36,729 bases of DNA from a virus. Position 1 is the stretch's first letter; the number at the start of each line of letters is the position of its first letter. This document shows positions 1-36,729 of the stretch, piece by piece. Location: IMG/VR virus record IMGVR_UViG_3300030099_004221, positions 1 through 36,729 of that record; one strand, 5' to 3'. Below the pieces are notes generated by a model. It was not told where the DNA came from and did no database searches. It saw nothing but the letters and a program-made list of their open reading frames with translations. The position numbers and the translations under genes were made by a program.

Positions 1-1
1 A

Positions 2-3000
2 GGTTTCGACGGTCGTCAGGGTAATGATGGTGTTCAAGGTGATGATGGAGCCCAAGGTAACGATGGAACCCAAGGTAATACCGGTTCTCAAGGTCGTGGC
101 ATTTCCTTTGCGGTCTCTGATCAACAACCTTCCGGTTCTACGCCTGGTGATATCTGGTATGATACGACAACTGGTCTTCACTTTATCTTCAACTATGATG
201 GTGATTCTTATCAGTGGGTTCAACTTGATGGTGTAAATGGAGACGAAGGATCTCAAGGCCCCGATGGTCCTCAAGGTAATGATGGTCCTCAAGGTAATGA
301 TGGTGTTCAAGGTTTCAACGGCGCTCAGGGATCCACCGGTATTACCGGTAATATAGGTCTTCTTTATAAGATGTCACTTGGGGCTGGCATCGACGGCAGC
401 AACGACGGTCGATTTTCGATTCAATCTGGCGCTAGAGTTCTAATACATCCAAACGATCAATTTGGTCAGGACTTTAGTGTGTACTGGGATGGTAGTTTTG
501 TCGGTGCTACGGGTGTGGGAAGTCTGTTCTTGACTCTTGAGTCTGATAGAAATAGATATCAAACTTTGAGATATGATGGCGTAACTTTTAATTCTTCTAG
601 TTTCCCGGGCGTTTATGAATATACTATTACCGGAACTGCTGGTTCAGAGTTGACTGGTTTCGTCGATGAAAAATTCTATGTATACTATCTGAAGGATGGT
701 GTGGATGGTATTGGTATCGGTGTTGCTGGTAATCAGGGTAATGATGGTCCTCAAGGTTTCGACGGTCGTCAGGGTAATGATGGTGTTCAAGGTAACGATG
801 GAGCCCAAGGTAATGATGGTGTTCAAGGTGATGAGGGGCCTCAAGGCCCCGATGGTCCTCAAGGTAATGACGGTTCTCAAGGTAATGATGGTCCTCAAGG
901 AGATGATGGTGTTCAGGGTAGAGGTGTTTCGTTTGCCGTTTCTGATCAACAACCATCAGGGGCCACGCCTGGTGATATCTGGTACGACACTACAACTGGT
1001 ATTCACTTTATCTTTAACTATGATGGAGATTCCTACCAGTGGTTACAACTTGATGGTGTGATTGGATCTGATGGTGTTCAAGGGCCAACTGGTCCGGCTG
1101 GGACAGGTGGATCTGGTGGCGTTGGGAAATACACTGTTGGCCCTGATTTGCCGATAAATTCTGTAACGGGTGAAAAGTGGTTTAATACTGGAGTTGGTCT
1201 AGAACTCACATCACTTGGACTTTCTGGCCCGTGGGTCGCACTCAACGCCTCTCGAAAGAACAACCCTGATGGTTACTTCCAGGCGAAAGACGCTAGCACC
1301 AGTCCCAAGGTTGTACACGATATGGCCTTCCTTGAGGTTATTGATAACTCAGAATTATATCCTCAATTCGAGGGACTCGCGGCCGGGTTTACAATAGGTT
1401 TCGAACCCGTGATTAGAGATGGAGTTACTGGTGCTAGATTAACAGTTCATGGTGTTGATCCGGCCGGATTGCAAGCACTGTCGGATCCAACATCACCTTC
1501 ACTGAAGACAGTCGGTGCGACCGGTCTTGGTGGTGCCATACCGTTCAATGTTAGTAACTCTGAGGGTGTTTCGTATTCTTCTAGTCTTCTGTTTGACGGT
1601 GTGAGTCTCGGTGTGTCCGGTGGTATTAATATTATCACGGGCGCGATCACTTTCCCAGACGGGACGATCCTCGCAAGTAACAGTGTGACTGGTGCAACGG
1701 GTGTTCAGGGTAACCAAGGAAATCAAGGACCACAGGGTAACCAAGGAAATCAAGGCAATCAGGGTATCGCGGGACCACAAGGTAATCAAGGCAACCAAGG
1801 CCCACAGGGCAATGATGGTGCGGACGGTCCTGTTGGTTCGCAAGGCAATCAGGGTATCGCGGGACCACAAGGTAATCAAGGCAACCAAGGCGTTCAAGGT
1901 TTGTCTGGTCCCACCGGATTTGCTATTGCTCCGTCTGGACCGCAAGGACATCAGGGTGCTGGAAGCCAAGGCCCTACTGGACCACAAGGTGTTCAGGGAA
2001 GACAGGGTGTAACTGGTAGTCTATCTTTTGTTGCTGGTCCAGTACAACCAACAAACGTGTTGCCTGGCGATATTTGGTATGACACCACTACCGGTATCCA
2101 CTTTATCTTTAACTATGACGGCGACTCATTCCAGTGGGTTCAGTTAGATGGTGTTGACGGACCCGTGGGACCAACCGGACCCGCCGGAGGGCCTCAAGGA
2201 AACCAAGGTAATCAGGGCAGGTTTGGTGTTGCCGGTGCTCAAGGAAACCAAGGCAATCAGGGCAACCAAGGAAACCAAGGCAATCAGGGCATGTTTGGTA
2301 TTGGTGTTGCCGGTGCTCAAGGAAACCAAGGAAACCAAGGCAATCAGGGCAACCAAGGTAATCAGGGTATCACTGGACCAGTTGATGATTACGTTGTATC
2401 TTTCAACGGTGCGACGGGAACTGTAACCACCAACTCAATAATACTGCCGGTTGCGGGACTCTCATCTGGTGGTGGCACATACAGTGGTGATCATTTCTAC
2501 CTCCCCGACTCCAAGATTATACTAGATGATGGCGTCGAGATTAGTAGTAGACTCGACGGTAATCCGATGTCGATACAGTTTAGGACTGGTGGCATCACTG
2601 GTTCTATGGAAATTGGTGATATTGGTGAAGAAGGAAACAGTACCATCCTCTTTATCAACGACGCTCAAAGGCAATTTGAATTTGGTGGTGGTAGTTCTTC
2701 CACTGTAAATGTATCAGGAATGCTCGAAGTTAACGGTGGTGGTAGTGCAACCGGTGGTATCACACTCGGTGAACGGGGCATCACCTTTAACGATGGTACG
2801 TTCCAGTCAACCGCATTCCGTGCCGGTCTGAAGTATACCGTTCAACATACCGACTTCACTGATGGAAACCCAACTGCGGGTGGTTGTAAACTCGTTAGTA
2901 ATATATCCGGAACTGCGATTGATGTGGTTGCCATACACGACACGGATGCTAACGGTAATGACATTTCTTCTCTTCTGACCCTACTTGCGGATAACGGCGG

Positions 3001-3733
3001 ATTCATTCAGTTCCTTAAGGAAGATGGTTCAGAACTGGTCGCGCTCGCCCTACTCCCATCTGAAAGTGCTGCTTTTGGAAGTGACATATTCACATTCACC
3101 GACATGTCTGGTGTAGAGGTTGACACGACTCCATCTGAAGGTGACATCGTTTATGTGTATGTTGTGCCGAATACGGTCAGTGCAGTTTCCACGTTCGGTG
3201 GTAGTAATATATGGAACACGGGCAACATTCAAGTTCAGAAGGGTCTCACCGTTGAGAACATTGCCAATGTTGGATACCTTGGTGTTGATGACAGGGCAAT
3301 TAAATTTGAGTCATATGCAGCTGGCGGAAGAGTCAAGGGGATTACCTTCGATGATGACACTCACCAGACATCTGCTGCTCAAGTAGACTCGGCCGTTGCT
3401 ACATTCACGGTCAGTGCCTCTAGTTCTATTGCGACTGGAGCTAAAACTAATTCTCTCTATCGAGTGCCATATAACGCTACACTAAGTAAGTTTGAAGTGA
3501 AGGCGAACACTGGTGGGTTCACCGCTGCCGTTTATGTCTCGGGTAGTGACTTTGCGAATCCAGAGACGGGAAAGGTGACTGGATGTTCTTTAGGTATTGC
3601 AGGGTTTACTGGTGAAACTACCGTTTTCAACCAGAGTAATGTAACCGGTGGTAACTTCCTATATCTTGATGTGTTTAGTAATGCTGGTGGGTCTACTGCT
3701 GCACAGGCTTTCTTGAGTTTTAATAGGAGATAA
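2..3733 (+). CDS. Giant collagen-like tail fibre / adhesin (5' end outside window)
   Basis: The reading frame is open from base 2, so the ATG at 371 is internal and the gene is truncated by the window start; about 1243 residues are visible. Long Gly-X-Y runs (about nt 2-100, 236-345, 735-925, 1695-2020, 2160-2380) are dominated by G-N-Q, G-N-D and G-P-Q triplets. They separate three copies of a roughly 44-aa globular module that contains PGDIWYDTTTG and FNYDGDS. The C-terminal third is Gly/Ser/Thr-rich beta-type sequence ending in FNRR. Phage collagen-like proteins are normally trimeric fibres or adhesins, so a virion-surface role at the tail or head is likely; the receptor is unknown. The gene is 3 nt upstream of the beta-helix gene and probably co-expressed with it. 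Confidence 0.85.
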   Translation, partial: GFDGRQGNDGVQGDDGAQGNDGTQGNTGSQGRGISFAVSDQQPSGSTPGDIWYDTTTGLHFIFNYDGDSYQWVQLDGVNGDEGSQGPDGPQGNDGPQGNDGVQGFNGAQGSTGITGNIGLLYKMSLGAGIDGSNDGRFSIQSGARVLIHPNDQFGQDFSVYWDGSFVGATGVGSLFLTLESDRNRYQTLRYDGVTFNSSSFPGVYEYTITGTAGSELTGFVDEKFYVYYLKDGVDGIGIGVAGNQGNDGPQGFDGRQGNDGVQGNDGAQGNDGVQGDEGPQGPDGPQGNDGSQGNDGPQGDDGVQGRGVSFAVSDQQPSGATPGDIWYDTTTGIHFIFNYDGDSYQWLQLDGVIGSDGVQGPTGPAGTGGSGGVGKYTVGPDLPINSVTGEKWFNTGVGLELTSLGLSGPWVALNASRKNNPDGYFQAKDASTSPKVVHDMAFLEVIDNSELYPQFEGLAAGFTIGFEPVIRDGVTGARLTVHGVDPAGLQALSDPTSPSLKTVGATGLGGAIPFNVSNSEGVSYSSSLLFDGVSLGVSGGINIITGAITFPDGTILASNSVTGATGVQGNQGNQGPQGNQGNQGNQGIAGPQGNQGNQGPQGNDGADGPVGSQGNQGIAGPQGNQGNQGVQGLSGPTGFAIAPSGPQGHQGAGSQGPTGPQGVQGRQGVTGSLSFVAGPVQPTNVLPGDIWYDTTTGIHFIFNYDGDSFQWVQLDGVDGPVGPTGPAGGPQGNQGNQGRFGVAGAQGNQGNQGNQGNQGNQGMFGIGVAGAQGNQGNQGNQGNQGNQGITGPVDDYVVSFNGATGTVTTNSIILPVAGLSSGGGTYSGDHFYLPDSKIILDDGVEISSRLDGNPMSIQFRTGGITGSMEIGDIGEEGNSTILFINDAQRQFEFGGGSSSTVNVSGMLEVNGGGSATGGITLGERGITFNDGTFQSTAFRAGLKYTVQHTDFTDGNPTAGGCKLVSNISGTAIDVVAIHDTDANGNDISSLLTLLADNGGFIQFLKEDGSELVALALLPSESAAFGSDIFTFTDMSGVEVDTTPSEGDIVYVYVVPNTVSAVSTFGGSNIWNTGNIQVQKGLTVENIANVGYLGVDDRAIKFESYAAGGRVKGITFDDDTHQTSAAQVDSAVATFTVSASSSIATGAKTNSLYRVPYNATLSKFEVKANTGGFTAAVYVSGSDFANPETGKVTGCSLGIAGFTGETTVFNQSNVTGGNFLYLDVFSNAGGSTAAQAFLSFNRR
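104..235 (+). repeat. Fibre module copy 1 (PGDIWYDTTTG module)
   Basis: First of three in-frame copies of a 44-aa segment (from SFAVSDQQP to VQLDGV) embedded between collagen-like runs. Copies 1 and 2 are nearly identical in protein and close in DNA. Confidence 0.9.
929..1060 (+). repeat. Fibre module copy 2 (PGDIWYDTTTG module)
   Basis: Second copy. The flanking collagen-coding DNA is also duplicated: the stretch starting near base 757 repeats the first roughly 60 bases of the window with few changes. This suggests recent internal duplication or recombination. Confidence 0.9.
1695..2380 (+). repeat. Gly-Asn-Gln / Gly-Pro-Gln collagen-type repeat tracts
   Basis: Near-tandem 9-nt units (ggt/ggc aac/aat caa/cag) code for G-N-Q repeats in two tracts, about 1695-2020 and 2160-2380, interrupted by module copy 3. 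A longer unit (QGNQGIAGPQGNQGNQG) is repeated at about 1760 and 1845. Such DNA is prone to slippage and recombination. Confidence 0.85.
2024..2155 (+). repeat. Fibre module copy 3 (PGDIWYDTTTG module)
   Basis: Third, more diverged copy. The first 15 residues differ (SFVAGPVQPTNVL), while the core PGDIWYDTTTG and FNYDGDS are kept. Confidence 0.88.
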
Positions 3734-3736
3734 TGA

Positions 3737-4873
3737 ATGGCACTGACTGACGTATTCATTTCACCAGCAGGAGCAGGGAGCAAGGACGGTAGTTCTGTTG
3801 CGAACGCACTACAGGCAATCGACAGTGGTGATTGGTCAACAGACATCGAGGGACTCGACCGAGCGAACAAGCGGTTTATATTTCTTGAGGGGACATATTC
3901 ACACACAACTAAGTTAACTTTTAGTGGTTCTGCCCCTACAGACGAACAACCCAATCAGTGGGTTGGTGCCAAGTCTGATGGAACCATTCTTAGACCTAAG
4001 TTTGATCAAACGGGTCTTCGATTGGACTTGACAAACTACCCACTTTTTGTCAATAGTTCAAATACTACTTCGGTTGATACAGAAGAACACACATATTATA
4101 AATGCTTGTCTTTTGAAAACACAAACGCCTCATACAATCAAGGTTCAATAGTTGAATCCGCCACCAGTGATATTGACGCACAGATGTGGTTTGGTTGTAA
4201 TTTTAAAGCAGCACCGGCAAATGACAATGCAGAGGTCATGGTCGGAAATAGCACTATATTTTCAATGTGCGTTTTTGAGTCAACAACAAAACAATATGAT
4301 AGAATACTAGACCTAAGAAGCAACACCAATGTATCAGATTGTAGGATCATCGGGGGAGGCACATCTTCAGGTAGTGGTGATGGAGATGGTGTAACCACAA
4401 CTAACTACTTTGGAAAGTTAGAGAGATGTGTGATTTGTAATGTTCATGGTCATGGTTTTAACCACACGGCAACGAACAACAGAAGTAATCCGCACATTCG
4501 TAACTGCTCGATTATCAATTGTGGGTCAGATGGGATAAAATCAACACCCACTGATCAAGCATCCGTTCAATCAGGAGTGATAGAGGGATGTATTATTTTT
4601 AACTGTACGGGTAATGGTATCGCAGCGGGGGCAGGTGACGACAGACAGAGTGGGGCGCAAATCGCCGCGATGGGGAGTAACGGTGCAAACTTTGAAAATA
4701 TGGACTCTTACGGGGACATGATTGATGTGATTGCGATCACCACCGCTGACTTTATTGATTATGCGAATGATGATTTTAGAATCAGAAGAGATTCTGTTTT
4801 GTATAATTTATACGGTGTGCAAAACTTTGGTGCTATTATGAACGAAGACTTTGAATTCGTGAGTGTGTCTTAG
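3737..4873 (+). CDS. Right-handed beta-helix virion protein (tail spike/fibre type)
   Basis: 378 aa. The ATG lies 3 nt after the preceding stop, with AGGAGAT as ribosome-binding site. The protein opens with MALTDVFISPAG...DG, typical of parallel beta-helix phage proteins. Residues of about 100-310 show ladder-like repeats of short strands with Asn, Cys and Gly at turns (for example CLSFENT, CNFKAAP, CVFEST, CRIIGGG, CVICNVHGHGF, CSIINCGSDGI, CIIFNCTGNGI). This matches the pectate-lyase-like fold used by tail spikes and adhesins. No catalytic residues can be assigned, so polysaccharide binding or degradation is only a possibility. It lies between two collagen-like fibre genes, which supports an adhesin role. 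Confidence 0.75.
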   Translation: MALTDVFISPAGAGSKDGSSVANALQAIDSGDWSTDIEGLDRANKRFIFLEGTYSHTTKLTFSGSAPTDEQPNQWVGAKSDGTILRPKFDQTGLRLDLTNYPLFVNSSNTTSVDTEEHTYYKCLSFENTNASYNQGSIVESATSDIDAQMWFGCNFKAAPANDNAEVMVGNSTIFSMCVFESTTKQYDRILDLRSNTNVSDCRIIGGGTSSGSGDGDGVTTTNYFGKLERCVICNVHGHGFNHTATNNRSNPHIRNCSIINCGSDGIKSTPTDQASVQSGVIEGCIIFNCTGNGIAAGAGDDRQSGAQIAAMGSNGANFENMDSYGDMIDVIAITTADFIDYANDDFRIRRDSVLYNLYGVQNFGAIMNEDFEFVSVS

Positions 4874-4881
4874 TATAAATA
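4874..4881 (+). promoter_or_regulatory. Late-type promoter element TATAAATA
   Basis: Exact T4 late consensus. It starts directly after the stop of the preceding gene and lies 15 nt before the ATG at 4897. Confidence 0.75.
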
Positions 4882-4896
4882 ACTTCAGGAGATACT

Positions 4897-6684
4897 ATGG
4901 GTATTGATTTTCCAGATGGACCAGAATGTAGTGTATACGGCTATACGTTTGAATCCGGATGCACAAACGAAAATGGAACTACTTTAACCTATGAACAAAA
5001 GTTCTCTGTTGTCGCATTTGATAATGGAAATACTGCTTGGGTTCCTTTGGGTGGTGTTTATTCGGGCAGAGACGGTGCTCCTGGCCTCCCCGGATCTCAG
5101 GGCCCTGATGGTGATCAGGGTAACCAAGGAAAGAAAGGTAACGAAGGATCTCAAGGCTTTCCCGGAAGAGAAGCTGATGATGGTTCTCAAGGCCCCGATG
5201 GTCCTCAAGGTGATATTGTGTCCGGATACGATTCGGACTCCGTGGAAAATAAAAGATTCACGATAGGTCTTTCAGGATCATATACCGTTCCGAGTCTTGA
5301 TTACTTTGGACTTGAAACTCTTGCTCCAACTACTAATAAACTTTTCCAAACGTATCTTCAACCGGGGAGAAATGACTTAAGCGATCCTTTCACGGGCGGT
5401 GCTTTCAATCCATTCTTTGTAGCAACTAAAGGTCAGGGATTAACGCATCCAACAGATATTGTTCCGGGTGCTACAGCAATAGCACATCCAACCAGGCATG
5501 TAAATCCGGACGATTTAATGTCATTTTCTCTGTGGAGGAGAGATAATTTTCCTGCCGTAAAATCCGAGAGTTTAGATTTAGACACAACCGATGTGACTGG
5601 TTATGAATTTAAATTCCTTGAGGTTAGTAGATTACTTTTTTCGACACCGCAGGGTTACTGTGGTGGGATAGACACTAAAGGCATAACTGGAATCGCAGAC
5701 CACGGAGACAGGCCCGTTATTGGTAGAATCATAGAGTCTCCGTATGTTGATCTCTTTAGGGAATTTCAAGGAGCAAATCCTTCTAATACAGCTGGATTTA
5801 CAGGAGCGCGAACTGGAACCCCGCTTGGAACTTTACCGGTCGCCGGTAGACCCGGTGATCTCACTGATCAGTTCACAGCGTCAAGGCAAGGTGGAGCTAT
5901 TTCTGCAATTAGAAGATGGAACATTAAAAATCTTGGGTCGGCATCTTACGAAAGTTCGGGTGTGATAGACCCCAGAGGGGCATTCACTAGAAATCCATTC
6001 TCATATTCTCCTTTGAATTTACTACCAGATGGGCCTACAGATGAATCTTGGGCAACTGTCCACGGTGGAAGAATGCCCTACATGTTTTACTATGGTGGTC
6101 CTATTATTCCGAAGGACGGAGACGTTGCTGCCTTTGACCCGGAATCTAGATGGAAATCTACTAAGGGTTCTGATGGGAAACATGCAATATACATTCAAGA
6201 TTTATACAAACCAGGCCCTAAATCTGGGTCCACCTTACCATCTGGCTCTTCCGGGCCCTGGCCTCTTAGACAGACCATGCACTTCAATGGATATAAGTAT
6301 GTCGATGCTGGCGCTACGGCGATTGATAAAATTGTTTTCTTGACAGGAACAGCTCAAAATGGTAACTATCCTTGCCCATTGGGCACTGGTGGTAGTGTTA
6401 CTTTAATTTTCAGTCAAAATAACCCCGGATCTGTCACTGGTGGTCCCACTTATGGTTTCGGGGGTTTGTTCGAATTTGTTGCGGGGTCTTGTGCGGACAC
6501 AGATCCAAAAATAGACTCTACGAATGAAAACGTAAGATTTGTTGGAGCTACTACATCTTCACTAGGATCTGCCACAGCGGATGTTGATGTTTTTCATATA
6601 TTCTGTACAGGTCTATTGGGTGGCGGAGAAACTGGTTATCTGATATCTCACCAACAATATAAGAATGCTGGGTATGAATTGTGA
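4897..6684 (+). CDS. Collagen-containing tail fibre/adhesin, paralogue A
   Basis: 595 aa with AGGAGAT ribosome-binding site. Residues 1-55 form an N-terminal domain (MGIDFPDG...YGYTFESGCT...TAWVPL) shared with the next gene. Residues of about 58-106 are collagen-like G-X-Y (nt 5068-5214). The large central region of about 390 residues has no match that I recognise. The last roughly 100 residues resemble the C-terminus of the next gene (VRFVGATT...DVDVFHIFC against VRISGGRT...DIDILYISC). By context this is a virion adhesin whose conserved ends would attach and trimerise while the middle differs. Confidence 0.75.
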   Translation: MGIDFPDGPECSVYGYTFESGCTNENGTTLTYEQKFSVVAFDNGNTAWVPLGGVYSGRDGAPGLPGSQGPDGDQGNQGKKGNEGSQGFPGREADDGSQGPDGPQGDIVSGYDSDSVENKRFTIGLSGSYTVPSLDYFGLETLAPTTNKLFQTYLQPGRNDLSDPFTGGAFNPFFVATKGQGLTHPTDIVPGATAIAHPTRHVNPDDLMSFSLWRRDNFPAVKSESLDLDTTDVTGYEFKFLEVSRLLFSTPQGYCGGIDTKGITGIADHGDRPVIGRIIESPYVDLFREFQGANPSNTAGFTGARTGTPLGTLPVAGRPGDLTDQFTASRQGGAISAIRRWNIKNLGSASYESSGVIDPRGAFTRNPFSYSPLNLLPDGPTDESWATVHGGRMPYMFYYGGPIIPKDGDVAAFDPESRWKSTKGSDGKHAIYIQDLYKPGPKSGSTLPSGSSGPWPLRQTMHFNGYKYVDAGATAIDKIVFLTGTAQNGNYPCPLGTGGSVTLIFSQNNPGSVTGGPTYGFGGLFEFVAGSCADTDPKIDSTNENVRFVGATTSSLGSATADVDVFHIFCTGLLGGGETGYLISHQQYKNAGYEL

Positions 6685-6688
6685 TGAT

Positions 6689-6696
6689 TATAAATA
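6689..6696 (+). promoter_or_regulatory. Late-type promoter element TATAAATA
   Basis: Exact T4 late consensus 18 nt before the ATG at 6715 and directly after the stop of the preceding gene, so paralogue B appears to have its own late promoter. Confidence 0.75.
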
Positions 6697-6714
6697 AAGT
6701 CATAGGAGAATAAA

Positions 6715-7644
6715 ATGGGCGTTGAATTTCCAACCGCTGATGCAGAATGTAATACTTATGGATATACTTTTGACTCCAATTGTACTGGAGCCGATGGTAA
6801 AACTCTAGATTATGATCAAACATGGCACGCTGTGGTTCTTAACGGCGTAACAGCATGGATCCCACTTTCATCTCCTACAATATCTGGTACTGATGGTACG
6901 GATGGTGCTCAGGGCAATGATGGATTCCAAGGTAATAACGGACCTCAAGGTAATGACGGTCCCCAAGGCGACTCTGGAGTTCAGGGTACAAACGCCACCG
7001 ATGGAACTCCCGGCGCTGAGGGCAATCAAGGTCGTCAAGGACCGGAGGTTAGAAGTGCAAGTCTAAAAAGTAAAGACATCAATGTCTTAGAAACCATGTT
7101 CGTTGAAAGTATTGATGGTAATACTTTTACAGTTAGTAGTACAGATTCATTAACATATGACCCTTCAAACCTAGGCGCGCTGAAAATAAAGAGACTAAGA
7201 GAGGACATAGGGACAGAGCCTGTCTTTAATAATGATGCTGATTTGATTCTTAGGGGTATTTGCGGACCCTCTCAGTTTGTAAACTTTACAGCTTCTACCC
7301 CTACAAAAATTATCTTAGACGACACTTCAGCGAGTGACGGATATGGAACTTGGAGTAGATGGATGGCTGGTGATTTCATGACGGTGATTATTAAGCAACC
7401 AACATCAGATCCGCCAAACAATTCTTGGGGACAAACAGGTCAAGACAATCAAAAGTTTTATAGATTAGATGGAACTCAATACGGTTCTGATGAAGTTAGA
7501 ATCTCCGGCGGGCGAACTGGATCATTTGGAAGGTCTTTAGGAGACATTGATATTCTTTACATTAGTTGTATAAATGAACCTTCACAGACCGCAATAAAAC
7601 CCTATTTTATAGTTAATCACGTTCCTTTCCACGCAACTGAATAA
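6715..7644 (+). CDS. Collagen-containing tail fibre/adhesin, paralogue B
   Basis: 309 aa with AGGAGA ribosome-binding site. The N-terminal domain (MGVEFPTAD...YGYTFDSNCT...TAWIPL) parallels that of the preceding gene. Collagen-like triplets follow (nt 6889-7050, G-N-D/G-P-Q/G-N-N), then a short central region. The C-terminal roughly 100 residues resemble those of paralogue A (TKIILDD...MTVIIKQ...DIDILYISC). It is about half the size of paralogue A because the variable middle is much shorter. A structural adhesin role is inferred from architecture and neighbours. Confidence 0.75.
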   Translation: MGVEFPTADAECNTYGYTFDSNCTGADGKTLDYDQTWHAVVLNGVTAWIPLSSPTISGTDGTDGAQGNDGFQGNNGPQGNDGPQGDSGVQGTNATDGTPGAEGNQGRQGPEVRSASLKSKDINVLETMFVESIDGNTFTVSSTDSLTYDPSNLGALKIKRLREDIGTEPVFNNDADLILRGICGPSQFVNFTASTPTKIILDDTSASDGYGTWSRWMAGDFMTVIIKQPTSDPPNNSWGQTGQDNQKFYRLDGTQYGSDEVRISGGRTGSFGRSLGDIDILYISCINEPSQTAIKPYFIVNHVPFHATE

Positions 7645-7647
7645 CGC

Positions 7648-7675
7648 TTGACTTCTTGTGAACATGTGGTATAAT
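7648..7675 (+). promoter_or_regulatory. Sigma70-like promoter for the primase-thyX-nrdJ block
   Basis: TTGACT (7648-7653), 16-nt spacer, TATAAT (7670-7675). The predicted transcription start at about 7682-7683 coincides with the in-frame ATG at 7683, so the primase message would be leaderless or nearly so. Confidence 0.75.
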
Positions 7676-7682
7676 GTTTGGT

Positions 7683-8741
7683 ATGAGTTTTTATGTCGAT
7701 AAAAAGTATATAAATTTAGTTTCGGCCAGGTTAGAAAGATTCTCTTGGAAAAGGGAAGATCTAGCTAATTGTAGGTGTCCTATTTGCGGAGACTCTACCA
7801 AGAATAAATCAAAGGCCAGAGGGTTCTTTTACAAGAAGAACTCCAACTTCTTTTATCGTTGTCATAATTGCAACTTTGGTTCCAACCTGTATAACTTCTT
7901 GGAACAACTTGACCCAACTTTAATGAAACAATATTCCCTAGAGAGATTCAAGAACGGAGAAACGGGTAAATCAAATTACAAGAAACCCAAAGATACAGAG
8001 CTCATGCCCATATTTTCTAGACCGAAGTTTAAAAAGAAAGATGATCTACTCAAACCACTTGTCCGAGTCAAGGATCTGCCGGACAACCACGTAGCAAAGC
8101 AATTCCTAGAACTTAGACAGATCCCAAAAAAGTTTTACGATATACTTTACTACTCTAAGGATTTTCACAAGTACATGAAACTAGTGGACCCTGAAGTTAG
8201 AGGTCTGGTGGGGGAAGATCAAAGACTAATCATACCCTTCTTTAATAAGAAGGATGAGGTAGTTGCAGTTCAGGGTAGAAGCCTATCTTTTAGAGAAGAA
8301 CACCAGGCAAGAAGAACCGCCAAGTATATTACTGTGAAGGCAGATAAGAGTATTGATCGTCTCTGGTATGGTATGTGGCGTGCAAACCCAAAGAAAACGG
8401 TTTACGTTGTTGAGGGCCCACTTGATTCTTTGTTCGTTCCCAACACCATCGCAATGGTAGGCGCGGGCGCTATTGATAACGTACATCCGAGGTTCGAAAA
8501 TTCTGAACTGATTTACGCTCTAGATAACGAACCAAGGAATCCACAGATATGCTCTTATGTGCAAAAACTCATCGATCGTGGAAAAACTGTGTGTATCTGG
8601 CCTAGGAACTTGCAACACAAAGACATTAATGATATGATAACCAGTGGTATGAGTGTTAGGGAGATAAAGAAAATGATGGATGAAAATTCTTGTGAGGGTA
8701 TGATTGCTCAATTAAAATTTAACAAATGGAAAAAGGTATGA
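7683..8741 (+). CDS. gp61: DNA primase, T4 gp61 type
   Basis: 352 aa from ATG 7683. An upstream in-frame ATG at 7674 lies inside the -10 box and is unlikely to be transcribed. N-terminal zinc ribbon: C32-P-I-C35 and C60-H-N-C63. A Toprim-like core follows, with the EGPLDS acidic motif (nt about 8411-8428), a hydrophobic strand ending in GAGA, and ALDNEP as the second acidic motif. Primases of this type make RNA primers at the phage replication fork together with a gp41-type helicase, which is not in this window. It is the first gene of a nucleotide and DNA metabolism block under its own early-type promoter. The assignment rests on the zinc ribbon plus Toprim order and length near the T4 protein. 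Confidence 0.88.
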   Translation: MSFYVDKKYINLVSARLERFSWKREDLANCRCPICGDSTKNKSKARGFFYKKNSNFFYRCHNCNFGSNLYNFLEQLDPTLMKQYSLERFKNGETGKSNYKKPKDTELMPIFSRPKFKKKDDLLKPLVRVKDLPDNHVAKQFLELRQIPKKFYDILYYSKDFHKYMKLVDPEVRGLVGEDQRLIIPFFNKKDEVVAVQGRSLSFREEHQARRTAKYITVKADKSIDRLWYGMWRANPKKTVYVVEGPLDSLFVPNTIAMVGAGAIDNVHPRFENSELIYALDNEPRNPQICSYVQKLIDRGKTVCIWPRNLQHKDINDMITSGMSVREIKKMMDENSCEGMIAQLKFNKWKKV

Positions 8742-8914
8742 ACGAAGATCCGGATGACAGATTACTCAAAGCACTACTGAAATTTAATAAATTATTTTCT
8801 GGTTACATAAAAGAAAACGATCCGGATCTGTGGAACCGAGCAGTAGATTTTGCCAAGGACTTTACTGACGTAGAAGGCGTGACACTATACTATCTTGATA
8901 AGGATGAAGAATGA
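8738..8914 (+). CDS. Small acidic protein of unknown function
   Basis: 58 aa from the ATG that overlaps the primase stop (ATGA); an in-frame ATG at 8726 would add four residues. There is no well-placed Shine-Dalgarno, so translation is probably coupled to the primase. The sequence is acidic and helical (LLKALLKFNKLF, DLWNRAVDFAKDF), with no metal-binding or catalytic motif. It sits between primase and thyX, joined to both by ATGA overlaps, so it is surely part of this operon. Function not recognised. Confidence 0.7.
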   Translation: MNEDPDDRLLKALLKFNKLFSGYIKENDPDLWNRAVDFAKDFTDVEGVTLYYLDKDEE

Positions 8915-22784: not shown

Positions 22785-25700
22785 ATGTTCTTTAATGCTG
22801 GCCGAATGGGATTCAAACATTTCAGATCAGTAGTGACTCCGGGTGGACCAACCCCCGGTGGTGATACTTATTGTTTTGGTTTAACTGGTACGGAACACGT
22901 AGTGTTTGGTTTTGACAATTTCCCAGTCCCAGACAAACCAGCCTTTGCTTACATTTATGATTGTACAATGACATCTGAGTGCATAGATTACAACAGGCCG
23001 AGAACTTATCCACCGAATAATTGTATCGATAAAACCAGCGATGTTTATGAGGGCCCACCAGTAGGGATGCCTGATGAAGAGTTTTGTTCTTGTACGGGAG
23101 ATTATGTAAAAGGACTAAATTGTTTTTTCAAGAACATCGTTAATAGAATTTCTGCGAATTCTCAAAATCACCTTACGACTAATTGTGGAGCACCCCAAAA
23201 TGCGAACGCACAGGATCTGTGCGCCGTTGGTCCGGAGGACATATTTTGTAGGACTGGAGGACCGGATGATCGATTAAGTGATGAATGTTGCATAGAAACT
23301 GGAGTTAATTGTACGCAATTTGGACACACTTTCTGCATTCCAACTGAAGACGAAATGTGCGATTTTTGTTTCGGTGGTGTAACGGGAGATGCAATTCATT
23401 GCGGTATTAGCGTGCCTTACGTGTCACCTAATTGTCTATGCACCACCAGCACATGTGCCGAGGGTTGCCCGCAAAATTCCAACTGTGAACTCTGTGATGC
23501 CTCCGGATCATTGTCCTACTTAGGACCAGCAGGGCCCGGCGAAAACGGATGTCCAATTAATGTTGATATGCCAGAGTCTCCTTCAATTAGAGATCCTCTC
23601 TCTGAAACCCAAGGCGGGATCACGCCTCATTACTGCATCACTAACACTGGACATTTTGTGTCTGTTGAGGATTTTGGGCCTGGAATAACAAATACAAATC
23701 AAATCGATCCAAGTAGAATGATAAACATAACTGGAAATGATTGTGCTGGTTGTTCCAACTCTGCATATAAAGCGTTCTTTGCGTATATCACATATGAAGA
23801 GGGTGTTACTTTCTGTAATCTTTTCCTAACGCCGACCATTAGTGGTCCCTGTTCTCCTCCCACTTTCACTGAGACTGGGTGTACTTTTGCCTTAGCTGGA
23901 TTCACCGCACCGGGAAGGACGGAACAATTCCAATACCCAGAGTCAGACTATCTGCTTGAGTTTGGTTGCGGAAAGGGTTTGGTAAGATCCAACTGGAGCT
24001 CAGACCCGCTCGGATTGCCCTTCTTCGACGAGACCAAAAGAATTGATACTTCGTTGATTGATACATGTGGTATCAATCCCTGCGGGTGTTCTGACCCCCA
24101 AAATGATCTATCTGATAACGTTGGATTTACTGGTGGGGCTTGTAGAGAATTTATGAATGGTGAACCTTATATAGTTGGATCCGCTACGACTCGACACTAC
24201 GAACCTTACTTTTCGACATGTGATTCGATCCTCAACCAAGTCGGAGCAGACCCTCAACCCTCCAATACCGGAGATTTGGTGGTCAATCCAACTATCGAAA
24301 ATGCAAGAACTCCCTTTGCTAGAGAAGCCGTTAATAGAATAGGTGTCAGGTCAGAGGAGTTGTTCGACCTGCCAATAATTTCAACTGGAATAGCTAGATC
24401 TTTCTTTGCTCCTTGGACTGACAACTTCATAGACAGAGTTGCTATTAATGCCGCTTCACTTAGTGTTGCCAATGAGGGTGTCGCATTTAGTGTATATCCT
24501 GCGTCAAATTATCACAGTTGGTTTAGTGGACCCATGTTTGATATCATACATGGAAACAGTGACAGCTTCGCTTTCGAATCGCCGGTCGGTGCCATCGATG
24601 ATCAACTAAGATTTAGGGGGTCTATAACCCCACAAACCACTGCTCCCATAACGATCAGAGGTCAACAACACCCACAGTTATTTGGAAACTTTATTACACC
24701 CCCCGGTTTCTTTGGATACGCAAAGGAAGCTAGAGAAAACATAACAAATAGAGGATATATGAATAGTTGGGGGGCTGTAAAACTAAACGAGTTTTATCGT
24801 CAACCTGATAGTGTCTGGACAGGAGGAACCCTGCCATCTTTCAATGAAGTTTTGACGAACGGTATAGAAGCTCCGCCGAATCAGACACCCGGATCCGCTA
24901 ACCCATCAGCTACTCACCTACAATCTAACCCGATGGGACTCACTGGATATTGTGGGATGGGTTGGTGTTCGATGATAGGCAGACAGAACTGTTCTTGGTT
25001 AAACCCCAGATTTACAGTCTTAAGTAATTGGTTGTGGGTGGGGGCTGGTAACTCAGCAGCGTACAAGCCGGGCACTGAAAAATATGCCGGATCCACTTAT
25101 TGGACAAATGCAGAACTTGATAAAATCCAATCTGAACTCTTCGGGATCGGGGCCCCCGGTCTCCCAGATCGTGGGTTCGGTGGTGCCGGGATCGGTGAGA
25201 ACATCGAACCAATAACCGGTTCGGTCTTCCAACCGGAACAAAGAGTTTTCTCAGTAACGACGTTACTTTCCCAACTCCCTCGTTCAGATGACGAAGATGA
25301 TCATGGCCCCAGTGGTCTACCTACATCTCAATACCCATGTTATTACAGTGGTGCAAACTTCAGGCCCGAGTGGACAGTCGGAGATGGTGTTCGAAAATTT
25401 CAAATTGTCGAACGACTACAGGAACCAGCTGGGACTGGGCGCGGTGGGGAGAGATCAAATACTTGCCCACAAGAATTCAACGAGTCCGGCGGCGCCAACG
25501 ATGTGAATGGTACAGCTAGAGTTAATTATGGACTATTTAGAGACGCTACTAGACCATACGAACAAAACCAAAGATATCACGGCATGGATAGATGGGAATC
25601 AGATTCCGCAGTTGGTCATCGTGGTGGCCTACTAGGTTCTGATGTCGTGGATGGTATCATGCCCAGTCCTTCAATTCTATCCTACTACCCACTTAATATA

Positions 25701-27179
25701 GTGGGGGGATACCTTTATGCTGGTCCAAAAACCGTAGATACCTATGGTCAACCCACGGTCAGTCTGTCAGATCTAAATGAAGTGACCGGTATTGGTAATG
25801 CCAATGGATTTCTCTATGGTGGTTTTGGTAGGGATATATCTTGGAGACAAAAGGGCGATCGAAATGACAAAACTTTATACTTAAATCCCGATGGCAGTCA
25901 AGCCACCGGAGCAACCACTCCCGACTCAAATCAATCTGATCAATACAGTTCTCATCACGCCCAGAGACTTTACAATAGCGGATCGGATACAAATAGCGCA
26001 ACTACCGCTAAAGTTCTGGATCTCCCCTATCAGCAGACGGGTAAAGTTTTAGATATGATCAGTAATTGTGAGTACCGTGGATGGCAATACTTAGCTGCTA
26101 GTCACTGTCTGTTGGACATTTCCTCACAAGGTATTTCGACAATTAGTTCTAAGTTCGCAGGATGTACTGCTTTTTATAGACCGCCAAGCGCTGGATCTTT
26201 CCCTGCAAGTGATGGGTCAAACGCGACTTCAACTTACCAGTTCAACGGGAATGGTTGGTGGTATAGAACCCACGAACAGTTGAGTAGAGGTATTGACGAG
26301 TGTGGATGGACATCGGGTATCGGCCCGGCCGGGTGGGTTAAACATGAACACGGATGGTATCCGGACTATGATGTCACGGATGGGACCGTCCTATCCCAAC
26401 AAATGGAAACCGGGAAAAACGCGGGCGATGAAGGAGCGAATCTAGGAGACAATCGATATACACAACCGAACGCTGATTTTCTCAATTCCTCTAGTTCTAG
26501 TTTCTCAAGACATGTAAAAAACGATATCGGGGGTTTCGTTCCGGGCGAGGAGAGTTTAATCATACCATCCCAAGTGGGTAATGATAACTTAAATAATGGT
26601 TGGACTGCGTGTTCCATGAAGAGTCCATTCTCTGACTACCAAAGGCAAGCCACTGATACGCACTTCCCCCAAATTAACTCAGGATATTATCCAGTCTCCT
26701 CTGCTGGTGGAATTGAAATATTGAACGATACTAAGATGTTCGACGCTGTGTTTGCATGGAGAGACGGACTCTCAGCCGGATTTGGTGGTCATCCCGGTAT
26801 CGAAGCGGGTGGATACTTTACATTAATTTCCCAGAATGGTGACACCCTACAGATTAGGGCAACCGGCGGTGTCGCTAGTATGTTGGGAAGCACATTTTCT
26901 GACCCGATTAATTTGAATATTAGACCATATGATGCTTCCCTTGAGGTCTTTGGTTTTACAGGAGACGATGCAGACCTTATTTGCGCTACAAACGCTGATA
27001 TTGACAAACCATATCTTGGAGCGTGTAGTAGAATACACGACAAGACCAATGGTGGGTTCAATAGTAGAGTATACTTCTCCTCTTTTAGTGGGTCAGACTC
27101 GAATCAGGTCGCGGAAATCGATGACGTTATATGCACACTAGCGAGTCACGCTGCTCCGAATGGGATTACGGGTGCATAA
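22785..27179 (+). CDS. Very large cysteine-rich virion protein
   Basis: 1464 aa; ribosome-binding site GGAG 9 nt before the ATG. The first roughly 500 residues hold about 40 cysteines in small clusters (for example NCLCTTSTC, CPQNSNCELC, CGINPCGCS), suggesting many disulfides or metal sites. The central and C-terminal parts are Gly/Ser/Asn/aromatic-rich with few Lys, typical of extracellular phage fibre or baseplate-attached proteins. There are no collagen triplets, signal peptide or membrane segment. Size and a late-type promoter point to a tail or fibre component. I do not recognise the family; which end attaches to the virion is unknown. Confidence 0.75.
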   Translation: MFFNAGRMGFKHFRSVVTPGGPTPGGDTYCFGLTGTEHVVFGFDNFPVPDKPAFAYIYDCTMTSECIDYNRPRTYPPNNCIDKTSDVYEGPPVGMPDEEFCSCTGDYVKGLNCFFKNIVNRISANSQNHLTTNCGAPQNANAQDLCAVGPEDIFCRTGGPDDRLSDECCIETGVNCTQFGHTFCIPTEDEMCDFCFGGVTGDAIHCGISVPYVSPNCLCTTSTCAEGCPQNSNCELCDASGSLSYLGPAGPGENGCPINVDMPESPSIRDPLSETQGGITPHYCITNTGHFVSVEDFGPGITNTNQIDPSRMINITGNDCAGCSNSAYKAFFAYITYEEGVTFCNLFLTPTISGPCSPPTFTETGCTFALAGFTAPGRTEQFQYPESDYLLEFGCGKGLVRSNWSSDPLGLPFFDETKRIDTSLIDTCGINPCGCSDPQNDLSDNVGFTGGACREFMNGEPYIVGSATTRHYEPYFSTCDSILNQVGADPQPSNTGDLVVNPTIENARTPFAREAVNRIGVRSEELFDLPIISTGIARSFFAPWTDNFIDRVAINAASLSVANEGVAFSVYPASNYHSWFSGPMFDIIHGNSDSFAFESPVGAIDDQLRFRGSITPQTTAPITIRGQQHPQLFGNFITPPGFFGYAKEARENITNRGYMNSWGAVKLNEFYRQPDSVWTGGTLPSFNEVLTNGIEAPPNQTPGSANPSATHLQSNPMGLTGYCGMGWCSMIGRQNCSWLNPRFTVLSNWLWVGAGNSAAYKPGTEKYAGSTYWTNAELDKIQSELFGIGAPGLPDRGFGGAGIGENIEPITGSVFQPEQRVFSVTTLLSQLPRSDDEDDHGPSGLPTSQYPCYYSGANFRPEWTVGDGVRKFQIVERLQEPAGTGRGGERSNTCPQEFNESGGANDVNGTARVNYGLFRDATRPYEQNQRYHGMDRWESDSAVGHRGGLLGSDVVDGIMPSPSILSYYPLNIVGGYLYAGPKTVDTYGQPTVSLSDLNEVTGIGNANGFLYGGFGRDISWRQKGDRNDKTLYLNPDGSQATGATTPDSNQSDQYSSHHAQRLYNSGSDTNSATTAKVLDLPYQQTGKVLDMISNCEYRGWQYLAASHCLLDISSQGISTISSKFAGCTAFYRPPSAGSFPASDGSNATSTYQFNGNGWWYRTHEQLSRGIDECGWTSGIGPAGWVKHEHGWYPDYDVTDGTVLSQQMETGKNAGDEGANLGDNRYTQPNADFLNSSSSSFSRHVKNDIGGFVPGEESLIIPSQVGNDNLNNGWTACSMKSPFSDYQRQATDTHFPQINSGYYPVSSAGGIEILNDTKMFDAVFAWRDGLSAGFGGHPGIEAGGYFTLISQNGDTLQIRATGGVASMLGSTFSDPINLNIRPYDASLEVFGFTGDDADLICATNADIDKPYLGACSRIHDKTNGGFNSRVYFSSFSGSDSNQVAEIDDVICTLASHAAPNGITGA

Positions 27180-34520: not shown

Positions 34521-34609
34521 ATGGCCCAATGGTCCTCTGGAGTGTTGTTGATGTTTTCTTCTTCACGTTCGATGGTGCAACTGTGGCAGTCGCATTCTTG
34601 GGTGTCCAT
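34517..34609 (-). CDS. 30-aa cysteine microprotein
   Basis: ATG 34609 is preceded by GGAGG 6 nt upstream, within the last codons of the VWA gene. The product carries C-D-C-H-S-C (residues 6-11), then an acidic tail (TIEREEENINNTPEDHWAI). Its stop overlaps the next start (ATGA), so it is placed as a coupled member of the operon. A C-x-C-H-x-C cluster could bind zinc or another metal. No family recognised. Confidence 0.6.
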   Translation of the reverse strand: MDTQECDCHSCTIEREEENINNTPEDHWAI

Positions 34610-36729
34610 TCAGACCTCCGCAAAGTTACCGGCCAGGGTGGTGAGCATACTGCGTTCGGCCTTCTTCGCAGCAGCCTGCTTGATGAATGCGGTCTTCGCT
34701 CGTGCCGCGGAGGCGTTCTCCGGGAGATTGTCGAAAGCATTCAGTGCTCGTCCGTTGATCTTGGGATCGAAGACGAAGTAGTGATCGTATCCGGGGTAGT
34801 CGGTCAGTGCAACGTACTTGTTGTTCTGGAAGTCTTCGAGGGCCTTGGTAGCCTTGTCGTGGTCGTTCATGTACTGAGTGGCGTAGTGACCATTGTCAGT
34901 CAGGAAGTACCCGATGGTGCGGCATCCCGTGGCCTGTCGAAGCCAGTTCAGGAGTCGATCGGTGTCGTTCTTACCTTCGACGACCTTGTTTCCGATCTTC
35001 AGAATCGCATCGCGGTAGTATCCACCTTCGGACCCGTTAAGTGCAGCACCGTAGTAACTGATCGGACCAGAACCGGAGCATCCGTCCGTGAGGAACACGG
35101 CGGTGGGGTGCTGGACGCCGGCGTCACGCATTCGCATGATCAGAGGAGCAGTCGCGGCGATGGCCTCGTCGAGAGGAGTACCACCGAGACCCAGACGACG
35201 ACCGATGCAGTAGTAGTCGTTCGGGGTGAAGACTCGCGCCTTGCTCTTGCGGCGGCCGCCGTTGATGTTGAAGTAATCCATGAGCGTGACCATGTTGACC
35301 AGCGACTGAGCGTAATCGGTGGGACTGAGGTTCGAAGAACTCATCTCCAGAAGACGGAATCCGTCACCGGAAACCTTGAAGTTCTTGCTGCCCTTGGTGA
35401 TCGAACCGACTGCTTCGGGAGCATCGTAACTACGGCGATCCCATCCAGTGGTGAAACCGTAGACCGCGAAGGGAATTCCGATTCGCTTGCAGAACATGAC
35501 GAGGTTGATGGCCTGCTGGATGGTATCACCCATCTGCTGATCCATCGATCCAGACCAGTCGATCTGAACGACCATGCCGTGGTTCTTACCCTTGGGCAGA
35601 ATCGTGTTCTTGCGGAAGATGTCTTCCGAGAACTTGTAGTTGACCATCTTGACGGTATCGAGAACACCAGTCTTCGAGATCTGCGCCCTGCGGGCAACGT
35701 CCGCGGCCTTCTTCATGTCGAACTGCTTCGCCATGACGTTGATCAGAAGCTTCTGATCGCGGAGGAAGGTATCGGCGTAGGCCTTGATGGCGATCTTCTG
35801 ATCGATGGTCAGGTTCTGAGAGAGCTCCTTGGTGATCTCGCTCGCGGGCACGATCACCTTATCGACATCCATTCGCACGGGAAGCTGTCCGTAGAGAGCG
35901 GGATGCTCGTCTTCGGCTCGGTCCTTATCGACGAGCGCTTCTTCCATACCCTGCTGGGTAGTGGAACGCTGCAGCGTGGAACCAGTATCGCCCGCTTCGC
36001 GGCCGGACGCGGCAGTACCATCGACTTCATCGGAGTCAGCAGACTCGCCGGTGTCGGTGTCGTCGTCCATCGATCCGCCGGTGTCGTCACCGTCACCGGA
36101 CTCGCTGCCTTCGGGAGTACCGTTGACATCTTCGTCGTCGCCGGCGTCACCGCCCGAGCCCTTACCGTCTTCGCCTTCGGAATCGTCGTCAGTCGATTCG
36201 TTCGAGGGCGAAGGAGAACCGCCGTTGCCGGACTGGCCCTTCTCAGGAGTCTGGCCGCTCTCGGACTCTTCCTGCTCCTGCTCCTTCTCGTCCTGTTCGA
36301 GCTTCGACATGTCGTAGAGCTCGCGGGCGAGATCGACAACTTCGGACCATTCAGTCGCCACTGCGATTCGGTTGACGAGATCCTGCTCTTCAGCGTTGAA
36401 CGAGACCGCGTATCGGTCTTCGAGCTTGAAGTGGAGGTTGACGCGATCCATCAGGGGCATGCCGACGGAAGAAGCGGGAAGATCACCGAAGATGCCATCC
36501 GTGTGCATACGGTCGTAGCCCATGCGAAAGTCCCGGACCAGGCCCGGGAACTTATCCTTCATGAGCCGCTCGATGCGGGCGTCTTCGACGATGTTGAGGC
36601 AATCCTTCGCAGCTGCGAAGTCGCGGCTGTTGATCGTGGCGACTGCGGCCATGAGAGGATCCATGCCGGCAGGAGTGAAGAGCGCGTGAGCGACTTCGTG
36701 ACCGACGAGCATATCGTAGAGCTCGTTGG
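34610..36729 (-). CDS. HExxH plus VWA-domain protein, CobT-like (5' end outside window)
   Basis: The frame is open through the right edge of the window, so the N-terminus is missing; 700 residues are visible from the first internal Met. GHEVAHAL (residues 4-11) is a zinc-peptidase-like HExxH. A very acidic/Gly/Ser linker spans about 138-245. The C-terminal VWA domain has the MIDAS motif D385-W-S387-G-S389 and a downstream LTDG. The order N-domain, acidic linker, VWA resembles cobaltochelatase CobT and related MoxR-partner proteins. T4-like phages often pair such a protein with a CobS-like AAA+ ATPase, which would lie outside the window. A role in remodelling a complex is more likely than cobalamin synthesis. 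Codon use is GC-richer than in the fibre genes. Confidence 0.78.
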   Translation of the reverse strand, partial: NELYDMLVGHEVAHALFTPAGMDPLMAAVATINSRDFAAAKDCLNIVEDARIERLMKDKFPGLVRDFRMGYDRMHTDGIFGDLPASSVGMPLMDRVNLHFKLEDRYAVSFNAEEQDLVNRIAVATEWSEVVDLARELYDMSKLEQDEKEQEQEESESGQTPEKGQSGNGGSPSPSNESTDDDSEGEDGKGSGGDAGDDEDVNGTPEGSESGDGDDTGGSMDDDTDTGESADSDEVDGTAASGREAGDTGSTLQRSTTQQGMEEALVDKDRAEDEHPALYGQLPVRMDVDKVIVPASEITKELSQNLTIDQKIAIKAYADTFLRDQKLLINVMAKQFDMKKAADVARRAQISKTGVLDTVKMVNYKFSEDIFRKNTILPKGKNHGMVVQIDWSGSMDQQMGDTIQQAINLVMFCKRIGIPFAVYGFTTGWDRRSYDAPEAVGSITKGSKNFKVSGDGFRLLEMSSSNLSPTDYAQSLVNMVTLMDYFNINGGRRKSKARVFTPNDYYCIGRRLGLGGTPLDEAIAATAPLIMRMRDAGVQHPTAVFLTDGCSGSGPISYYGAALNGSEGGYYRDAILKIGNKVVEGKNDTDRLLNWLRQATGCRTIGYFLTDNGHYATQYMNDHDKATKALEDFQNNKYVALTDYPGYDHYFVFDPKINGRALNAFDNLPENASAARAKTAFIKQAAAKKAERSMLTTLAGNFAEV

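Follow-up and report, generated by a model that had tools for sequence, protein, structure and literature searches.

A collagen-like phage tail-fibre gene with Asn/Gln-rich tracts, bead modules and tract lengths that appear to vary by whole triplets

The fibre gene and its genomic setting

The window, by which we mean the whole stretch of 36,729 bases analysed here, is a virus record that is broken within a gene for a collagen-like tail fibre. Frame 2-3733 (+) is open, lacks a start codon at the contig edge, ends in a stop and encodes 1243 aa, the 3' part of the gene. The protein scores 128.7 bits with Pfam Collagen (PF01391; cut-off 27.2, E 6.8e-38) and matches many PHROG tail and tail fibre families (best E 5.4e-63), and an earlier note's reading of the locus as a phage collagen-like fibre is borne out by both. 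The assignment to tail fibres is carried by the PHROG tail families and by the phage neighbour genes. Nine runs of GXY triplets, each of at least four triplets and together comprising 110, lie between 2 and 2383. The features of the gene and its neighbour are listed here by window position.

2..3733, +, collagen-like tail-fibre gene, 3' part (open frame, Pfam, PHROG); 5' part in L013/G001
2..91, +, GXY run, 10 triplets (triplet scan)
98..235, +, module A copy 1, 46 aa (repeat comparison)
230..364, +, GXY run, 15 triplets (triplet scan)
362..706, +, non-collagen domain, 115 aa, family search negative
719..916, +, GXY run, 22 triplets, rich in GND (triplet scan)
923..1060, +, module A copy 2, modelled with AlphaFold2
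1121..1243, +, module B, related to module A but divergent from it (24% identity, common G-D/E-x-W motif)
1121..1690, +, module B and non-collagen domain, family search negative
1691..1924, +, GXY run, 26 triplets, rich in GNQ and GPQ (triplet scan), with an exact 51-nt repeat at 1751-1801 and 1841-1891
1961..2023, +, GXY run, 7 triplets (triplet scan)
2018..2155, +, module A copy 3
2189..2383, +, two GNQ tracts; G001 is 27 nt (three GNQ) longer at about 2291
2816..3730, +, C-terminal tip, also conserved at 15 further viral loci whose shafts differ
3737..4873, +, gene after the fibre gene, matching a right-handed beta-helix weakly; at 14 of the 15 loci with the tip it comes next to the tip gene

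The 5' part of the gene was recovered from IMGVR_UViG_3300030331_002718 (G001; 11,755 bases), the sole contig found by the scan with the gene's 3' part. G001 is 100% identical to window 1-2291 over 2,291 nt, with zero mismatches, and its frame extends upstream to an ATG, adding 697 codons and bringing the fibre to about 1,940 aa, a length made approximate by a gap of 10 N. Module A occurs four times in the G001 frame, module B three times and a short TGFAIAP motif four times. Upstream of it lie ORFs that resemble, as named by eye, DNA polymerase, RecA/UvsX and a replicative helicase. Elsewhere in the window, ORF 29977-32670 matches 510 phage records, 493 of which are named Synechococcus, Cyanophage, Prochlorococcus or Pelagibacter; we take these records to include T4-like myoviruses. 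The fibre gene is also a recurrent assembly breakpoint, as contigs at four of the nine loci with the N-terminal domain described below (L309/L013, L310, L313 and L314) end inside it, like the window.

Searches with the fibre protein itself added little. The whole protein gave zero tblastn matches to phages, probably owing to the low-complexity filter, and matched collagens and one fibril protein, and nothing else, among PDB sequences; its last 115 aa had no useful match there, and Rfam gave no match over window 1-8800. We attribute the antisense and out-of-frame ORFs within the collagen region to its repeat structure.

Composition of the collagen tracts and the bead modules

GNQ is the commonest triplet of the window tracts (23 of 110), followed by GPQ (12) and GND (11); Lys is absent and there is no Pro at Y. 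These tracts were compared with viral contigs matched by a pattern of 15 triplets in which only the Gly codons are fixed. There were 120 stretches among the matches listed, and 117 of the loci were kept, three having no open tract of the required size. The comparison used runs of at least five triplets and at least 15 triplets (a separate tally, with sample runs of at least 14, gave slightly different fractions). Among the 117 viral GXY proteins from the matches listed, median Pro at X is 19.5%, against 18.9% in the window, while the GNQ fraction of the window (21.7%) and its Asn at X (34%) are each equalled or exceeded in just one protein and its Gln at Y (54.7%) in six. The proline content of the tracts is ordinary and their Asn/Gln bias is unusual; the fibre is of an ordinary kind with an uncommon composition. 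Table 4 of PMC3368898 gives an average of 22.1% Pro at X for viral collagens and 48.1% for E. coli prophage fibres. The premise of the earlier note, that most phage tracts are rich in G-P-x, is at odds with both viral figures, and its claim that Asn and Gln take the place of Pro fails, given the rank of GPQ and a Pro content close to the viral median. GNQ does predominate as that note had it, but GND is outranked by GPQ; the unusual Asn/Gln bias was correctly seen. Five consecutive GNQ triplets occur in at least 119 viral stretches (108 of the 119 listed are in open frame) and, across 84,980 species genomes, in 54 stretches, 50 of them open. GNQ tracts are a recurring style among viruses; literature searches on length variation in phage collagens and on a collagen XVIII likeness of the module brought up the precedents cited here but no account of GNQ fibres.

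The tracts alternate with small bead modules. Besides the three copies of module A in the window, at 98-235, 923-1060 and 2018-2155, a fourth lies upstream in G001, which adds two further copies of module B as well. The copy at 923 shares 91% (91.3%) of its residues with that at 98, and the copy at 2018 shares 72%. The three copies that had been noted as a triplicated module are present, but G001 carries four, and what looks like a triplication is therefore part of a longer array truncated by the contig edge. Matches to module A at 39-49% identity come from 20 phage records, of which 19 belong to Synechococcus phages. Cyanophage fibres with a G-D-x-W module (P-SSM2, S-SCSM1, S-CREM2, ACG-2014i) share about 28-49% identity with module A and have the same predicted fold; the S-CREM2 protein P0003, unlike the window fibre, has no collagen tract. 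A Pfam match to DUF6440 (26.9 bits against a cut-off of 26.5) was set aside as too weak, as the isolated module scores only 16.7 bits.

The AlphaFold2 model of module A, a monomer prediction, has a pLDDT of 91.8 and matches 15 viral structures at E <= 0.001, several of which are annotated 'Collagen triple helix repeat'. Against the PDB, Foldseek returned none at E 0.001, the trimerization domain of collagen XVIII/XV standing at E 0.29. In a structure ranking (VIA), this domain aligns with the model at Z 5.3 and rmsd 1.7 A over 42 of 46 residues with 2% identity, a Z below 8 that may reflect a common arrangement. The top seven rows all carry the collagen XVIII/XV domain, again at weak Z values below 8, followed by TSP3 of phage CBA120 (Z 4.7). 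The N-terminal domain of the K1 lyase of a Klebsiella phage is described in PMC8822698 as resembling the collagen XVIII domain; the K1 lyase structure is absent from the best 50 rows of the ranking. Sequence comparisons give no such likeness: the module profile found nothing useful among PDB sequences, the collagen XVIII/XV domain not being among the matches, and nine module members searched against Pfam gave no support for homology with it. The model of module A suggests a weak resemblance to the collagen XVIII/XV trimerization domain. The human domain is likewise a small beta domain adjoining collagen, and the predicted fold of module A aligns with it at that low Z, but the low identity comes with no sequence match.

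Shaft exchange and tract length

The ends of the fibre are shared with relatives whose shafts differ. The 88-aa N-terminal domain of G001 was found in eight other viral loci (nine with G001) as well as 35 phage records, of which some bear a tail fibre annotation, and it matches a PHROG tail protein at E 4.9e-06. Pfam phage-fibre N and C domains were found neither in the window protein nor in the N-terminal 88 aa nor in the tip. Locus L310 has the N-terminal domain (at 93%), a B module and the FAIAP motif in common with the fibre, but its collagen is made of GPT, GVQ and GFQ. In L316, a relative of the N-terminal domain heads a fibre at least 2,413 aa long in which GIQ, GVQ and GLQ triplets dominate. 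At the other end, six relatives match the tip (2816-3730) at 44-54% identity, and a seventh, partial one does so at 37%. The tip is present in 15 viral loci, seven of which have GXY-run shafts, led by GTT/GAT, GST, GPT, GPQ or GER/GEK, and eight of which have none, NGxTG-repeat shafts being among the latter. The tip has no match in phage records, and its model is so poor (pLDDT 53) that the PDB matches listed for it were set aside. The beta-helix-like gene at 3737-4873 (+), which has no match among 50,697 phage records, lies directly 3' of the tip gene in 14 of the 15 viral loci. Judged from these comparisons, the tip and the beta-helix-like gene form a conserved two-gene cassette beneath changing shafts. 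The modularity of tail fibres is well described (PMC10684548).

Within otherwise matching fibres, tract length appears to vary between near-identical viruses. In the tract that ends near 2291, G001 is 27 nt longer than the window, with eight GNQ triplets where the window has five. For a wider view, the window, G001 and the GNQ and GXY loci fetched were compared in 214 pairs with at least 800 nt aligned at 99% identity or more. L077 was excluded because it duplicates part of L013. The pairs are not independent, most coming from one phage group. The 15 in-tract gaps among them are all of 9, 27 or 63 nt, that is multiples of 9, and we grouped them into seven distinct events. Outside the tracts there are eight gaps of 1 nt, taken as one event (in L036). 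As tracts make up 29% of the aligned bases, the binomial chance of at least seven of eight events falling within them is 0.001, assuming an independence that holds only in part. More diverged pairs (86-97% identity) also have gaps of 1-8, 17 and 29 nt. Together, the alignments offer good evidence for in-frame length change in GNQ-style fibres. The earlier note had expected length variation in related genomes and a change of fibre length. The former is seen in the seven in-tract indels; of the latter, what stands is that tracts shift by whole triplets and that shafts differ greatly among relatives with the same tip, and the length change seen between near-identical genomes lies in the GNQ tracts rather than in module number.

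Alternative readings and the proposed fibre

The same note had ascribed the likeness of module copies 1 and 2 and their flanks, taken as nearly identical in DNA, to recent recombination. Near-identity is confined to the 5' flank, where 1-66 and 754-819 are 95.5% identical over 66 nt, 40 of them exact; gene conversion acting locally there would account for it. A comparison of 2-97 with 757-852 was discarded as out of register. The modules themselves are 84.8% identical in DNA and 91.3% in protein, with 15 synonymous and four non-synonymous codon differences in 46 codons, and the upstream copy, 79.7% identical to copy 2, is about as distant from it as copy 1 is. A recent duplication of copies 1 and 2 is contradicted by this synonymous divergence, barring an extreme mutation rate, and is very improbable. 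Because of the 15 synonymous changes, we read the copies as an old duplication under selection, with no sign of recent recombination. The length differences, for their part, might be artefacts of short-read assemblers that mis-resolve 9-nt repeats, in a population with one tract length. The window and G001 both end within the fibre gene, as do contigs at four of the nine N-terminal-domain loci, and G001 has its 10-N gap in its part of the gene; the 27-nt site is no more than about 100 nt away from the end of G001, and an assembly error is therefore possible for that one case. However, a 63-nt difference separates contigs that are otherwise 100% identical over aligned parts of up to 8.4 kb, and the shafts of same-tip relatives differ by hundreds of residues, so that artefact is an unlikely explanation.

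A further question is whether the GXY tracts fold as collagen at all, or instead make up a different bundle of polyproline-II type or a disordered linker. With just 19% Pro at X and none at Y, stability without hydroxyproline is uncertain; certain viral GXY repeats (GSS, GTS, GYS) are entirely without Pro. Against this stand the strict Gly periodicity and the Pfam Collagen score, the alternation of bead domains with tracts, as in other phage collagen fibres, and the average of 22% Pro at X that PMC3368898 gives for viral collagens. The same source reports that an E. coli prophage collagen fibre was demonstrated to be triple-helical. We regard a structure other than the triple helix as improbable.

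We consider it likely that the gene encodes a homotrimeric tail fibre with a collagen shaft, bead-module clamps and a conserved tip, and that the phage, tailed and aquatic, is a relative of T4-like cyanophages. The 88-aa N-terminal domain would anchor the fibre to the virion. It would be followed by a shaft of roughly 1,500 aa in which collagen triple-helix segments are interleaved with small beta-modules (four of A, three of B), and these modules may act as trimer clamps that hold the three chains in register. The GNQ, GND and GPQ tracts would form triple helices without hydroxyproline, and the conserved C-terminal tip, encoded just before the beta-helix-like gene, would probably contact the host. 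The repetitive DNA of the tracts may gain or lose whole triplets in frame by slippage or unequal recombination, with a possible effect on reach; over a longer term, whole shafts would be exchanged while the tip and its neighbour gene are retained.

Several known systems share parts of this layout. The EPcl proteins, fibres of E. coli O157 phages and prophages described in PMC3368898, likewise have a collagen domain between N- and C-terminal fibre domains, lack hydroxyproline and favour Gln at Y, and their collagen domains vary among prophages by whole triplets (63, 78, 81, 111, 114 and 144 aa). In contrast, EPcl tracts have 48% Pro at X and many Lys/Arg, where the window has 19% Pro and 34% Asn at X and no Lys, and the Pfam phage-fibre domains of EPcl type are those not found here. 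In streptococcal phages, the siphophage Tal proteins covered in PMC9437275 have collagen-like linkers of variable length alternating with beta domains of about 60 aa; the phage type differs from that of the window and the likeness is one of layout. A tentative and rather doubtful extension is that the 46-aa module has the collagen XVIII/XV trimerization fold and serves as an internal clamp at which, beyond each collagen segment, the triple helix is renucleated and brought back into register. In that case phages and animals would both pair one small trimer fold with collagen, and in phages the clamp would leave the Asn/Gln tracts free to drift in length in whole-triplet steps, so that fibre reach would evolve fast. 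Near-identical genomes with in-frame tract-length variation, and one tip on many shafts, offer a way to test whether collagen length tunes reach. Asn/Gln collagens without lysine or hydroxyproline are a natural test of triple-helix stabilisation, and the bead module could serve as a compact tag for trimerization.

Three further observations concern other ORFs of the window. ORF 34529-36727 (+; 733 aa), itself without a match, is antisense to an ORF at 34610-36727 (-) that matches the PHROG annotation 'peptidase'. ORF 22785-27179 (+) encodes 1,464 aa with 49 cysteines, 35 of them within the first 470 residues, and is Pfam and PHROG negative. ORFs 4897-6684 and 6715-7644 (both +) are fibre-like; their N-termini are paralogous, at 45.5% over 112 aa, and their collagen tracts are short, 12 and 17 triplets long.
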